From the NCBI GenBank assembly GCA_022819985.1, contig JAJEGH010000023.1:1-64000 (forward strand): a stretch of DNA of 64,000 nt, given 5' to 3'. The notes under the pieces are model-generated. The model searched no databases. It was given only the letters and a program-made list of their open reading frames with translations, and was not told where the DNA came from. Within the stretch, counting starts at the first letter, position 1; every line of letters starts with the position of its first letter. Shown piece by piece: positions 10,403 through 35,543 of this stretch. The DNA comes from Alphaproteobacteria bacterium (GTDB taxonomy: Bacteria > Pseudomonadota > Alphaproteobacteria > Bin65). Position numbers and translations under genes: made by a program.

Positions 10403-13270
10403 ATGCGCCTGTCGTGGAACGAAGTCCGCGCCCGCGCCGCCGCCTTCGCGGAGGAGTGGAAGAACGCACAATACGAGAAGGGCGAGACCCAGAGCTTCTA
10501 CAACGAGTTCTTTGCGGTGTTCGGCGTCCGGCGGCGCTCCGTCGCGCGCTACGAAGAGCATGTGAAGAAACTGGCCGGGATCCCCCGCTTCAGCGACCCG
10601 GACCTGTTCGGCGACCGCAAGCGGGTTTCGGCGCCGGGCGGTAGCAGCGGTTTTATCGACCTGTTCTGGCCCGGCGTCCTGATTGTCGAACAGAAAAGCG
10701 CTGGGCGCGATCTGGAGAAGGCTTACGGCCAAGCCGGCGAGTATTTCGACGCGCTGCCGGAGCGCGACCGACCCCGCTACATCCTGGTGAGCGATTTCCA
10801 GACCTTCGAACTGCACGATTTGGACGAGCGGGAGGAGGTCACTTTCGCGCTGGCGGACCTGCCCGCCAATGTCGAGAAATTCGGCTTCATCCTAGGCGTG
10901 CAGCGCCGCACCTTCCGCGACCAGGACCCGGCCAATATCGAGGCCGCCGAACTGGTCGGCCGCCTGCACGATGCGCTCGAAGCCGCGGACTACAAGGGTC
11001 ACGATCTCGAACGCCTCCTGGTGCGGATTGTGTTCTGCCTGTTCGCCGACGACACCGGCATTTTCGAGCGCGACATCTTCCTCGACCTGATCGAGCATCG
11101 CACGAGCGAAGACGGATCGGACACCGGTGCCCGGCTCGCGGAGCTGTTCCAGGTGCTCGACACGCCGGAAGCCGAACGCCAGACAACGCTGGACGAAGAC
11201 CTCGCCCGCTTCCCCTACGTCAACGGCGCCCTGTTCGAAGGAACGCTGCGCATTTCGTGGTTCGACTCCGCCATGCGCGCGGCGCTGCTCGACGCCTGCC
11301 GCTTCGACTGGTCAAACATCTCGCCGGCGATTTTCGGGGCACTGTTCCAGTCGGTCATGGACCCGAAGGAACGCCGCGCCAAGGGCGCGCACTACACGAC
11401 CGAGAAGAACATCCTCAAGGTCATCGAGCCGCTGTTCCTCGACGACCTGCGCGCCGAATTCGCCCGGCTGAAGGCGCGGCGCGACACCCGCCGCCGGGCG
11501 GAACTGCTGCGTTTTCAAGAGCGGCTCGGCTCGCTGCGCTTCTTCGACCCGGCCTGCGGCTGCGGCAATTTCCTGATTATTGCCTACCGGGAATTGCGCG
11601 CCCTCGAAATCGAGGTGCTGCGGGAAGTCCTTCCGCGGCACCGGACAGGCGTGCAGCAGACCGACGTACTGACCGATACGCTTTCGGTCGTCGATGTGGA
11701 CCAGTTCTACGGCATCGAGATCGGCGAGTTCGCGGCCCGGATCGCCGAGACGGCGCTGTGGATGATGGACCACATTATGAACAACCGGCTGAGCCTCGCC
11801 TTCGGCCGGACCTTCGCGCGGATACCGCTGGAAACGTCGCCGCATATCCTGCACGGCGACGCGCTGGAGGCCGATTGGGCGAGCCTGCTGCCGCCGGCCG
11901 ACTGTTCCTTCGTGTTCGGCAATCCGCCCTTCGGCGGCTCCAAATACCAGACGGCGGAACAGCGCGCGCAGGTGCGCCGGATCGCGGCGCTCGGCAAGAG
12001 CGGCGGCACGCTGGATTACGTCGCGGCGTGGTTTATCAAGGCCGGAGAGTATGTCCGGAAAAGCAAGGCCCGGATCGGCTTCGTCGCCACCAACTCGATC
12101 ACCCAGGGCGAGCAGGTGGCGCAACTCTGGCCGGTCCTGTTCGGACGCTGCAAGCTGGAGATCGCCTTCGCCCACCGTACCTTCGCCTGGGGATCGGACG
12201 CGCGCGGCAAGGCCCATGTCCACGTCGTCATTCTCGGCCTCGACCGGAGGGAGGCCGTGCGCGCCGAAAGGCGCCTGTTCAGCTATCCCGACATTAACGG
12301 CGACCCGGAGGAAAGCCACCACGCCGCGCTCTCGCCCTATCTGTTCGACGCCGCCGGCCTCGCCGATCCGCACCTGACGGTGCGGGAGGAGAGCAGGCCG
12401 ATTAACGGGACGGGGCGGCTTCTAAGCGGAAGCCAGCCCATCGACGACGGCGAGTACATCTTCAACGCGGAGGAACGCGCCGAACTGCTAGAGGCTGAAC
12501 CGGACGCCAGGCAATTTCTTCGTCCCTATGTCGGCGCTCTCGAATACCTTCAAGGCGGGGAACGCTGGATTCTGGCATTGCAGGAAGCATCGCCGACGGC
12601 GTTGAAACGTCTTCCTTTGGTCCGGCAGCACATGGCCGCGGTCCGTCGATTTCGGGCGAAGAGCAAGCGCAAGAGCACGTTGGCGATTGCCGACTATCCG
12701 ACGCGGTACAACGTCGAGGTTATCCCCATCGCACCGTTTCTTGCCGTCCCCAAAGTCAGTTCGGAGCGGCGGGAGTATGTGCCGGTGGGTTGGCTGGAAC
12801 CGCCAACCATTCCGAGCGACCTCGTCTTTGTTCTTCAGAACGCCACCCTCGCCGATTTCGGGCTGCTGACCTCGGCGATGCACATGGCGTGGTTGCGCCA
12901 TATCGGCGGGCGGCTGAAAAGCGACTACCGCTACTCCATCGGCCTCGTCTACAACACCTTCCCGACGCCGCGGGGCTTCGCGGAAGGGAAGGCGGACCTG
13001 TCGAAACTGGAACCGCCGGCGCAAGCAGTGCTCGACGCCCGCGCCGCCCACCGCGGCGCCACGCTGGCCGACCTCTACGACCCCGACCTGATGCCGCCGG
13101 ACCTGCGCAAGGCCCACCGCGCCCTCGACCGCGCCGTAGACCGCCTCTACCGCCGCAAAAGCTTCGCCACCGAACGCGAACGCGTCGAACACCTGTTCAC
13201 GCTATACGAAAAAATGCGTGCGCCGCTTGAGGCGGGGATGAAAGGGAAACGAAAAAGGCGATCAATCTAG
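10403..13270 (+). CDS. MmeI-like single-chain restriction-modification enzyme (type IIL/IIG)
   Basis: A 955-residue protein joining nuclease and methyltransferase. The N-terminal nuclease carries the D-x9-E-x-K site (FIDLFWPGVLIVEQKSAGRD, D86, E96, K98), the spacing seen in MmeI. The central amino-methyltransferase has motif I FFDPACGCGNFL near residue 382 and motif IV GNPPFGG near 507, the NPPF form typical of N6-adenine methylation. A target-recognition domain and helical C-terminus follow. Such enzymes methylate one strand of the site and cut at a fixed distance, so no separate methylase or specificity gene is needed. The recognition sequence is unknown. The gene starts 25 bases after the molybdopterin enzyme but is probably unrelated. 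Confidence 0.88.
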   Translation: MRLSWNEVRARAAAFAEEWKNAQYEKGETQSFYNEFFAVFGVRRRSVARYEEHVKKLAGIPRFSDPDLFGDRKRVSAPGGSSGFIDLFWPGVLIVEQKSAGRDLEKAYGQAGEYFDALPERDRPRYILVSDFQTFELHDLDEREEVTFALADLPANVEKFGFILGVQRRTFRDQDPANIEAAELVGRLHDALEAADYKGHDLERLLVRIVFCLFADDTGIFERDIFLDLIEHRTSEDGSDTGARLAELFQVLDTPEAERQTTLDEDLARFPYVNGALFEGTLRISWFDSAMRAALLDACRFDWSNISPAIFGALFQSVMDPKERRAKGAHYTTEKNILKVIEPLFLDDLRAEFARLKARRDTRRRAELLRFQERLGSLRFFDPACGCGNFLIIAYRELRALEIEVLREVLPRHRTGVQQTDVLTDTLSVVDVDQFYGIEIGEFAARIAETALWMMDHIMNNRLSLAFGRTFARIPLETSPHILHGDALEADWASLLPPADCSFVFGNPPFGGSKYQTAEQRAQVRRIAALGKSGGTLDYVAAWFIKAGEYVRKSKARIGFVATNSITQGEQVAQLWPVLFGRCKLEIAFAHRTFAWGSDARGKAHVHVVILGLDRREAVRAERRLFSYPDINGDPEESHHAALSPYLFDAAGLADPHLTVREESRPINGTGRLLSGSQPIDDGEYIFNAEERAELLEAEPDARQFLRPYVGALEYLQGGERWILALQEASPTALKRLPLVRQHMAAVRRFRAKSKRKSTLAIADYPTRYNVEVIPIAPFLAVPKVSSERREYVPVGWLEPPTIPSDLVFVLQNATLADFGLLTSAMHMAWLRHIGGRLKSDYRYSIGLVYNTFPTPRGFAEGKADLSKLEPPAQAVLDARAAHRGATLADLYDPDLMPPDLRKAHRALDRAVDRLYRRKSFATERERVEHLFTLYEKMRAPLEAGMKGKRKRRSI

Positions 13271-13336
13271 CGCGAACCGCCCGGCCGTGCGTTCCAGCAG
13301 TCTTACCGAGATCAGCGTCGCTTTGCTTCCTGTCTC

Positions 13337-13365
13337 TGGACGGGAAACTGAGATGTCCGTATAGT
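13337..13365 (+). promoter_or_regulatory. Sigma-70-type promoter for the candidate small RNA
   Basis: TGGACG (13337-13342, 4 of 6 to TTGACA), a spacer of exactly 17 bases, and TATAGT (13360-13365, 5 of 6 to TATAAT). It points away from the restriction gene into a stretch with no protein frame but several strong hairpins. A start near 13372 is expected. Confidence 0.5.
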
Positions 13366-13371
13366 CTCCCG

Positions 13372-13594
13372 GCTAGTCAAGGGAGAGGGCGATTGGGGTG
13401 CCGCCCCCGTCACCGCCGCTGAGCGACGTCACCGGGGGCGGGCTTTGCTACGCTAACAAAGCGAGCGAATGCCAATCCACCGCTACCTCCTTTCATTGGC
13501 GTTCCTCCCGACGCAACGGTGCAAGCGTTATGCGTCGGGTGCTCGAAGTCCTTGGACGGCGGAACATCATGAACTGTGTTCCGCCGTCTTTGTT
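13372..13594 (+). ncRNA. Candidate structured small RNA with CCTCC loop
   Basis: Five hairpins follow one another on the plus strand: 13401-13409/13433-13441 (CCGCCCCCG), 13442-13447/13457-13462 (GCTTTG), 13468-13476/13495-13503 (AATGCCAAT with one G-T pair), 13507-13515/13531-13539 (CCCGACGCA, perfect) and 13555-13566/13577-13588 (12 perfect pairs) followed by TTTGTT. The third hairpin exposes ACCTCCTTT in its loop, an anti-Shine-Dalgarno motif seen in many alphaproteobacterial trans-acting small RNAs. A promoter sits just upstream. No plausible protein is encoded. It does not look like tmRNA, 6S RNA, SRP RNA or RNase P RNA by eye. Confidence 0.5.
13555..13594 (+). terminator. Strong hairpin terminator overlapping the end of the convergent gene
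   Basis: GACGGCGGAACA and TGTTCCGCCGTC form a perfect 12-base-pair stem with a 10-base loop, followed on the plus strand by TTTGTT. The stop codon of the minus-strand gene (13567) lies in the loop. It would end plus-strand transcripts; on the minus strand it lacks a T run. Confidence 0.65.
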
Positions 13595-14388
13595 GGGGTT
13601 CCTGACTGACTCTCGATGGTTATCGAGCCCTTGAAGCCGTAGATCAGATCGAACCCCATAGCCGCAGCCTTCAGCCAAGCGACACGCTCCTCTACCTCCC
13701 ATTGGCCGTCTTGTTTCTTTGGAAGGGTGGCAAGCAGCCCTTCGATAAAGGGATGTCTTGTTCCACGGTCGCCGCCGCTTTCGGAGACGGGAGGCTCTTC
13801 ATGTTCAGGTGATTGCTCTTCCGAAACCGCCTCAGTTTCGGAAAACCCCGGTTTGACCAGCCGATCAGAGCCATCCTTCAAATAGCCGGCGGTCTTGGCC
13901 GAACGCTCGAATGACGATCTGGCCTTCGCCGTTTGCTTTTTGGCGACACCAAGGCGAATGAACTCACTTTCCAGGGCAGCGGGCGGTGGCAGTGAGTTGC
14001 CACGGTATTCTCTGAATACGGCATTGAACAGGGGCACCCTTAGAAATGCATCCGCCTTTGCCGCACCCTTTTGATCGGGGTCTACTATTCTTCGGCCAAG
14101 TTCAGTCAGCTGACGAGCGCCACCGGACGCACTCTCGGTCAGCCCAAATATCTTGGACGCGGAAATCCGGTTCCGGTAGCTGCTGCTCTTATCGCTGAGT
14201 TCAAGCCAAGGGGCGAGCTGGTCGTCTGAACATTGACCAGCGCCCACATTGTCGTGAATAGCTTTGGCCACTTCGATAGCCTCGCCGAGGGGTTGATAGG
14301 GAAATCCAATCCTTGACCTTTCCCGTTTCTCACTCTGGTTCCCTGCCTCGGTTTCCTCTGAACCCATTCCATCGTTTGCAGTATCCAT
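13567..14388 (-). CDS. Uncharacterised protein with winged-helix-like core
   Basis: A 273-residue soluble protein starting MDTANDGMGSEETEAGNQSE, with GGAGG correctly placed before ATG 14388. After an acidic, probably disordered N-terminus, residues about 30-170 (FPYQPLGEAIEVAKAIHDNV to AKTAGYLKDG) look like a helical, winged-helix-type module resembling DUF5343-like DNA-binding domains; this is a weak impression, not a firm match. An acidic linker and a C-terminal helical region follow. It is less GC-rich than its neighbours, which suggests acquisition. It lies convergent to the restriction enzyme and the candidate RNA. Confidence 0.6.
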   Translation of the reverse strand: MDTANDGMGSEETEAGNQSEKRERSRIGFPYQPLGEAIEVAKAIHDNVGAGQCSDDQLAPWLELSDKSSSYRNRISASKIFGLTESASGGARQLTELGRRIVDPDQKGAAKADAFLRVPLFNAVFREYRGNSLPPPAALESEFIRLGVAKKQTAKARSSFERSAKTAGYLKDGSDRLVKPGFSETEAVSEEQSPEHEEPPVSESGGDRGTRHPFIEGLLATLPKKQDGQWEVEERVAWLKAAAMGFDLIYGFKGSITIESQSGTPTKTAEHSS

Positions 14389-15027
14389 CACTAGTCCCTC
14401 CTTATCCGAAGATACGGTTAGCCAAAGGGCATGTGGCGGTCTTAGTGGATAGTCCGCACTATTGCAACCGATTTTTGTCCGATCAAAAGGAGGTTTCGTG
14501 GATAAGAGGCGAAACACACGGTCAATCGCTACGCGAAATCATGAAAAAATCAGATTTTCCGGTCATTTTCTTGACCTGATCCTTATCCGACTCTAGCCGA
14601 CAGGTCGCCAGTCTTCGAGGCAATCAGTCGCTTATGTGGCGACAGCGCTGCCGCCAATTCGCCGGAATCGTCGCCGCGCGAACCCCCATCCCGCCGTTCC
14701 GGCCCCAAGATACCTACCGTGCCGCCCCGGACGGCCGCAAGCCGGTCCGGGGCCCAGAGTCGCCCGGCACGGCTGTTGCTTGTGGCTCCAGTCCCCGGAT
14801 CGCCACGTCGCGCCGTCCGGGGGCAAGTGAGGGATGGCCGCGGTCGGTGAAAACCGCCGCTTTCAACGAAACGAACCCCCCGCGGACTGTGCCGCGGAGG
14901 GTCCCTGTAACGTGCCCGCCTACGGGCGTAACGGATAGTGGCGCCGCATACAGGCGCAGCCGGGCGTTCGGTCAACCAGCCGCCGCTGCCGGGCGGGCGG
15001 CACGGACGGGCCGGAAACGCCGCGGTC
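14389..15027. other. Long intergenic region with one dispersed repeat
   Basis: About 640 bases without a credible gene. The first 190 bases are AT-rich and should contain the promoter of the minus-strand gene ending at 13567. A family A repeat fills 14721-14823. Around 14881-14935 are short hairpins (CCGCGG-ACTGTG-CCGCGG and GCCCG-CCTA-CGGGC) downstream of the 40-residue gene, possibly its terminator. Frames here are low in quality and run against codon bias. Confidence 0.5.
14721..14823. repeat. Dispersed GC-rich palindromic repeat, family A, copy 1
   Basis: This stretch shares its order of blocks (CCGCCCCGG, CCGGGGCCCAG, GTCGCC, GGCACGGC, TGTGGCTC or CGTGGCTC, CCCCGGATCG, CGTCCGGGG) with 19743-19840. 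CCGGGGCCCAG and the later CCCCGGATC arm give it a self-complementary character. Two copies in the window imply a genome-wide family. Confidence 0.65.
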
Positions 15028-35510: not shown

Positions 35511-35543
35511 AAAAAAATCGGAGCTCCGAAAAACCGGAGCTCC
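35511..35543 (-). terminator. Intercistronic terminator between dctP and dctQ
   Basis: Read on the minus strand, GGAGCTCCG and CGGAGCTCC form a perfect nine-pair stem with a six-base loop, followed by GATTTTTTTCG. This is a textbook intrinsic terminator inside the operon, just after the dctP stop. It would protect and favour dctP message while letting a fraction read into dctQM. Confidence 0.75.

Follow-up and report, generated by a model that had tools for sequence, protein, structure and literature searches.

A candidate small RNA locus with an anti-Shine-Dalgarno-like loop behind an MmeI-type restriction-modification gene of an alphaproteobacterium

The DNA analysed here, referred to as the window, is a stretch of 64,000 nucleotides (64 kb) from an alphaproteobacterial contig. 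An MmeI-type restriction-modification gene (mmeI) on its plus strand is followed by a short intergenic space, which is closed by the end of a convergent gene on the opposite strand (Table 1). An earlier note, made from the sequence alone, had proposed a new small RNA at this place. The promoter-like site TGGACG-N17-TATAGT, the two perfect stems of nine and twelve pairs, and the closing hairpin with TTTGTT, on which that proposal was built, were all recovered. The run of successive hairpins was also recovered on the plus strand, with the second one (13442-13462) being weak. As the note had stated, the last hairpin reaches into the convergent gene, where it overlaps the stop of the ORF, and no protein feature explains the structure: the two longer ORFs crossing the candidate matched no protein family over its cut-off. 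The first segment (13366-13400), taken alone, was unstable in the shuffle test (z +0.34).

Table 1. Features of the candidate locus, in positions of the window.
Feature	Position	Strand	Remark
MmeI-type IIG restriction-modification gene, upstream	10403-13270	+	
Intergenic space, 296 bases	mmeI stop (13270) to convergent gene end (13567)		
Promoter-like site, sigma-70-type, TGGACG-N17-TATAGT	13337-13365	+	putative; 9 of 12 consensus positions
Predicted transcript, ~220 nt (~222)	13371-13592	+	start and end inferred from -10 element and T tail, respectively
5' segment AAGGGAG, predicted mask of the anti-Shine-Dalgarno loop	13379-13385	+	fold predictions, suggestive only
Hairpin with closing 9-bp stem	13401-13441	+	z -2.26; 6 of 200 shuffles as stable
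Weak hairpin	13442-13462	+	z -1.14
Frame of 10 codons opening with GTG, downstream of the minus-strand Shine-Dalgarno	13448-13480	-	
10-bp hairpin, one G-U pair, 18-nt loop holding ACCTCCTTTC	13467-13504	+	z -4.34
ACCTCCTTTC, anti-Shine-Dalgarno-like motif	13485-13494	+	minus-strand reading is the Shine-Dalgarno GAAAGGAGGT
C-rich linker UUCCUCCC	13502-13509	+	mostly paired in the predicted fold
Hairpin, 9 perfect base pairs	13507-13539	+	z -3.90
Terminator-like hairpin, 12 perfect base pairs, then TTTGTT (13589-13594)	13555-13588	+	z -4.41
Convergent ORF, longest form	13567-14517	-	likely start near 14388-14391 by alignment

The candidate has a strong folding potential. The region 13366-13600 folds at -111.8 kcal/mol, compared with -92.3 kcal/mol for shuffled versions (z -3.77), and none of 200 shuffles was as stable. 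A scan of the 64 kb in 426 grid windows (225 nt each, 14 shuffles per window, one strand) found no gap to the shuffle mean beyond -18.8 kcal/mol, whereas the candidate, in a register that had been chosen, reached -23.5 kcal/mol. Shifted registers gave smaller gaps in the scan, namely -11.0 kcal/mol at 13340, -11.8 kcal/mol at 13351, and -16.9 kcal/mol at 13501. We conclude that the structure is more than chance. Folding is equally strong on the minus strand (z -4.32), so that structure does not discriminate between the strands; it is the T tail and the promoter-like site that favour the plus strand.

Promoter-like sites of equal quality occur eight times in the 64 kb, three times on the plus and five times on the minus strand, and the match is modest on its own, with one site found versus 0.6 expected in 2 kb. 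The motif ACCTCCTTTC is present once per strand in the 64 kb. Perfect stems of at least 9 bp with at least four T in the next six bases are found at two places in the window, the other being 35520-35543, which scores on both strands. At the candidate terminator, the T tail is on the plus strand only. The strongest case for an RNA gene comes from the order of promoter-like site, hairpins, and terminator-like stem on one strand.

In line with the proposed novelty, no known RNA family matched. At the gathering score, Rfam had no match anywhere in the window. In 13271-13620, a search up to an E-value of 10 brought up two microRNA models and nothing else, both scoring far under threshold. No tRNA or tmRNA was detected in the window. 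According to the DNA search, the candidate is single-copy in its own genome. DNA searches of 61, 385, 11 (drawn from the same order), and 398 genomes (overlapping sets) yielded nothing credible, and those of plasmids and phages no match. A covariance model, built from the one sequence entered twice, was run against 385 genomes with no credible result: E-values of 1 or below were obtained in 29 of them, the window's own included, and the best other value (0.0018) was rejected because it is about the chance expectation over 385 genomes. Model matches in 22 sources, with a best E-value of 0.005 outside the window, were rejected too. Several short matches were taken as chance. One of 24 nt (genome G055) had no comparable structured context and lay, by eye, inside a gene; another of 34 nt (genome G576) fell within an open frame of 462 codons; and the 18-mer CCACCGCTACCTCCTTTC occurred in six viral contigs, where the surrounding stretches were near-identical and all lay within open frames exceeding 150 codons. 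No homologue emerged from any of these searches. A distant relative may still exist, as the stems of a rhizobial RNA family are, in the part of PMC3927594 considered here, so divergent that covariance models lose power.

For the slot behind mmeI, eight fetched regions of the same genus were compared. Relatives of the MmeI protein were present at five loci of three genomes (twice in G001, twice in G005, and once in G006), and the regions of G002, G003, and G004 contained none. No blastn match in the eight regions touched positions 13271-13566 of the window, and the candidate RNA is missing behind the mmeI relatives in the three genomes. The DNA behind mmeI, read at three of the five loci, was different in each. 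Judged from these sequences, the slot behind mmeI is variable. A short repeat at 14720-14822 of the window matches many places in its own genome and in same-genus relatives, and probably represents an interspersed repeat family.

The convergent protein (13567-14391, minus strand) belongs to an uncharacterised family, which occurs beside insertion-sequence transposases (IS1595- or IS1-type) in records of several phyla. Homologues with 30-48% identity were found in Phaeovulum, Mesorhizobium, Woeseiaceae, Acidobacteria, Methylibium, Aquisalinus, Dehalococcoidia, and Thermoleophilaceae records and also in IMG/VR contigs; plasmid and phage protein searches with the family gave no match. No Pfam, NCBIfam, PADLOC, or PHROGs family matched the protein, and a fold search with its model (mean pLDDT 75) returned no match at E-values of 0.001 or below. 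Two transposases beside the family were tested. The one adjoining the gene in locus L072 is of the IS1595 type (PF12762, 4.5e-36), and the one in L070 gave an IS1 domain match just over the cut-off (PF03400, 4.5e-05). The repeat TCAAACTGAGACA (at most two mismatches) forms an inverted pair around the gene in three of the 11 sources scanned (L015, L017, and L019), and the other eight, the window included, do not hold it. The GC content drops along the convergent gene, which was probably acquired. The homologue shares its interval with tRNA genes in L015 and L017.

The flanks of the convergent-gene homologues contained no RNA like the candidate. Structured flanks in G003 (z -5.94) and G017 (z -3.81), first taken for relatives, were dismissed, with a model E-value of 0.56 for G003 and no match for G017. 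In the flank comparisons, five of 36 similarities were reached by at most 10 of 100 shuffles. A single one of them, from L018, was matched by no shuffle; it comprises 19 nt that largely complement a ribosome-binding site, and was rejected as an RNA relative. A stretch upstream of the same-genus homologue in L007 (7550-7760, minus strand) showed a z-score of -5.94 and had no Rfam match.

The earlier note had further described an exposed anti-Shine-Dalgarno motif. The 18-nt loop does carry the anti-Shine-Dalgarno-like ACCTCCTTTC, which differs from the CCUCCUCCC of the rhizobial families in the parts of PMC10746234, PMC8844928, and PMC3927594 that were consulted. Exposure, however, was not supported by the predictions for the full-length molecule, in which the loop is probably hidden. 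In the minimum-energy fold with starts at 13369-13372, AAGGGAG in the 5' segment is paired with CTCCTTT in the loop. The probability that the hairpin is formed and the motif is free was at most 0.001 for these expected starts, 0.09-0.19 for starts at 13373-13380, and 0.36, 0.59, and 0.25 for starts at 13366, 13386, and 13390, respectively. In the predicted fold of the isolated 3' part (13466-13592), the motif was 98% unpaired, that is, open in the shorter 3' form. Among 1000 shuffled arms, 90 attained the pairing energy of 5' arm and loop, as did 67 of 1000 shuffled loop regions and six of 2000 random 32-mers of the window. These values are suggestive of a masking of the anti-Shine-Dalgarno loop by the 5' AAGGGAG in the full-length molecule.

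We infer that the locus may encode a lineage-restricted, independently transcribed RNA of ~220 nt that pairs in trans with the ribosome-binding sites of mRNAs, a tentative reading whose probability falls not far short of one half. Transcription would proceed from the promoter and end at the terminator-like hairpin, and ACCUCCUUUC would pair with ribosome-binding sites of mRNAs, thereby blocking translation. The motif would presumably be masked by the 5' AAGGGAG in the full-length form, and activity would therefore need processing to the ~127-nt 3' form, or refolding. Among five nearby start regions, the loop pairs most strongly with the two that contain AAGGAGG (-14.8 and -15.6 kcal/mol), one belonging to the convergent gene itself and the other to a 32-codon frame at 14498. 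In 14486-14596 of the window (plus strand), AAAAGGAGG is well spaced to the GTG of the 32-codon frame, which is divergent from the convergent gene. A lineage-specific small RNA of known kind, possibly self-masked, is plausible. It is favoured by the strong fold, by a promoter-like site directly upstream and a terminator-like stem at the end, by the open motif of the 3' form, and by the pairing with the AAGGAGG start regions. The failure of all searches to find a homologue, the predicted masking from the expected start, the equally strong fold of the minus strand, and the weakness of the promoter match on its own speak against it. We consider it unlikely that all parts of a more elaborate model apply, in which the 5' AAGGGAG acts as a pseudo-ribosome-binding site that locks the loop, cleavage or unfolding frees an active ~127-nt 3' form, the RNA occupies a strain-specific slot behind the restriction-modification gene, and it possibly acts on the neighbouring acquired gene at its AAGGAGG start sites.

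The main rival to a small RNA is ordinary structured 3' sequence. In that case, the mmeI mRNA would have the hairpins as its 3' untranslated end and terminator in the narrow gap between convergent genes. Their role would be to stop transcripts or to stabilise them, and the anti-Shine-Dalgarno match would be incidental. The position of the region between two stops (13270 and 13567), a terminator-like hairpin that any plus-strand transcript could use, the modest promoter match, and the strong structure on both strands are all consistent with this reading. On the other hand, several strong hairpins precede the terminator, which is beyond the need of termination, and no such structure was matched behind the mmeI relatives of the three same-genus genomes. 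We regard an mmeI 3' end as a substantial possibility, only slightly less probable than an independent small RNA.

If the minus strand were the functional one, the convergent mRNA would extend with its 3' part across the hairpins and show, in a hairpin loop, the Shine-Dalgarno GAAAGGAGG and a GTG opening a short frame. The minus strand does offer a textbook GAAAGGAGG, followed by N5 and a GTG with a 10-codon frame, in a fold with a z-score of -4.32; this reading is nevertheless improbable, given that the T tail is on the plus strand only and that the frame has just 10 codons. The SD-GTG-TGGC pattern derived from the sites of the window and G003 occurred in four of 15 genomes, including those two, versus eight of 15 for the backward control, and the similar stretch of G003 does not, by eye, retain the stem. 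The region could also be a mobile-element remnant or belong to an interspersed palindromic repeat, which would fit the variable slot, the occurrence of the neighbour gene's family beside transposases, and the numerous palindromes. The single copy in the own genome and the absence from the window of the terminal repeat of L015, L017, and L019 make such an origin very unlikely.

If transcribed, the candidate would represent a further orphan anti-Shine-Dalgarno small RNA, located in an accessory slot adjoining a restriction-modification gene, and a masked seed, if true, would be a little unusual among such RNAs. If not transcribed, the locus would be an example of strongly folded intergenic DNA mimicking a small RNA gene.

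A hairpin loop with an anti-Shine-Dalgarno-like motif connects the candidate with the ar14 family (NfeR1, RF02344). As far as the cited parts of the sources describe it, ar14 silences mRNAs at the ribosome-binding site via hairpins with unpaired anti-Shine-Dalgarno motifs (PMC10746234, PMC3927594) and consists of three hairpins, each with CCUCCUCCC (PMC10746234), in ~115 nt (PMC8844928). The candidate, in contrast, has one such loop, ACCUCCUUUC, in ~222 nt and lacks the three-hairpin CCUCCUCCC layout described there. The ar14 model had no match in 13271-13620 up to an E-value of 10 and none in the candidate's genome at E-values of 1 or below; across 11 genomes, it gave weak matches in three and none over the cut-off. 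The 3' part of the candidate is also reminiscent of ar15 (AbcR1/AbcR2, RF02345), with an anti-Shine-Dalgarno-like loop hairpin, a short C-rich linker, a hairpin, and a terminator in similar order. The AbcR motifs, as given in the part of PMC8844928 used here, are aSD1 CUCCUCCC, located in the loop of the 5' hairpin, and aSD2 UUCCCCUC, which lies between stem-loops one and two, whereas the candidate contains neither CUCCUCCC nor UUCCCCUC and its linker is mostly paired. Searches with the ar15 model revealed no match in 13271-13620 up to an E-value of 10, none in the candidate's genome, and only weak ones in five of 21 genomes, with none over the cut-off. On this sequence comparison, the candidate is to be placed outside ar14 and ar15. 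If it is transcribed, the simplest mechanism would, by analogy, still be that of the known anti-Shine-Dalgarno RNAs.
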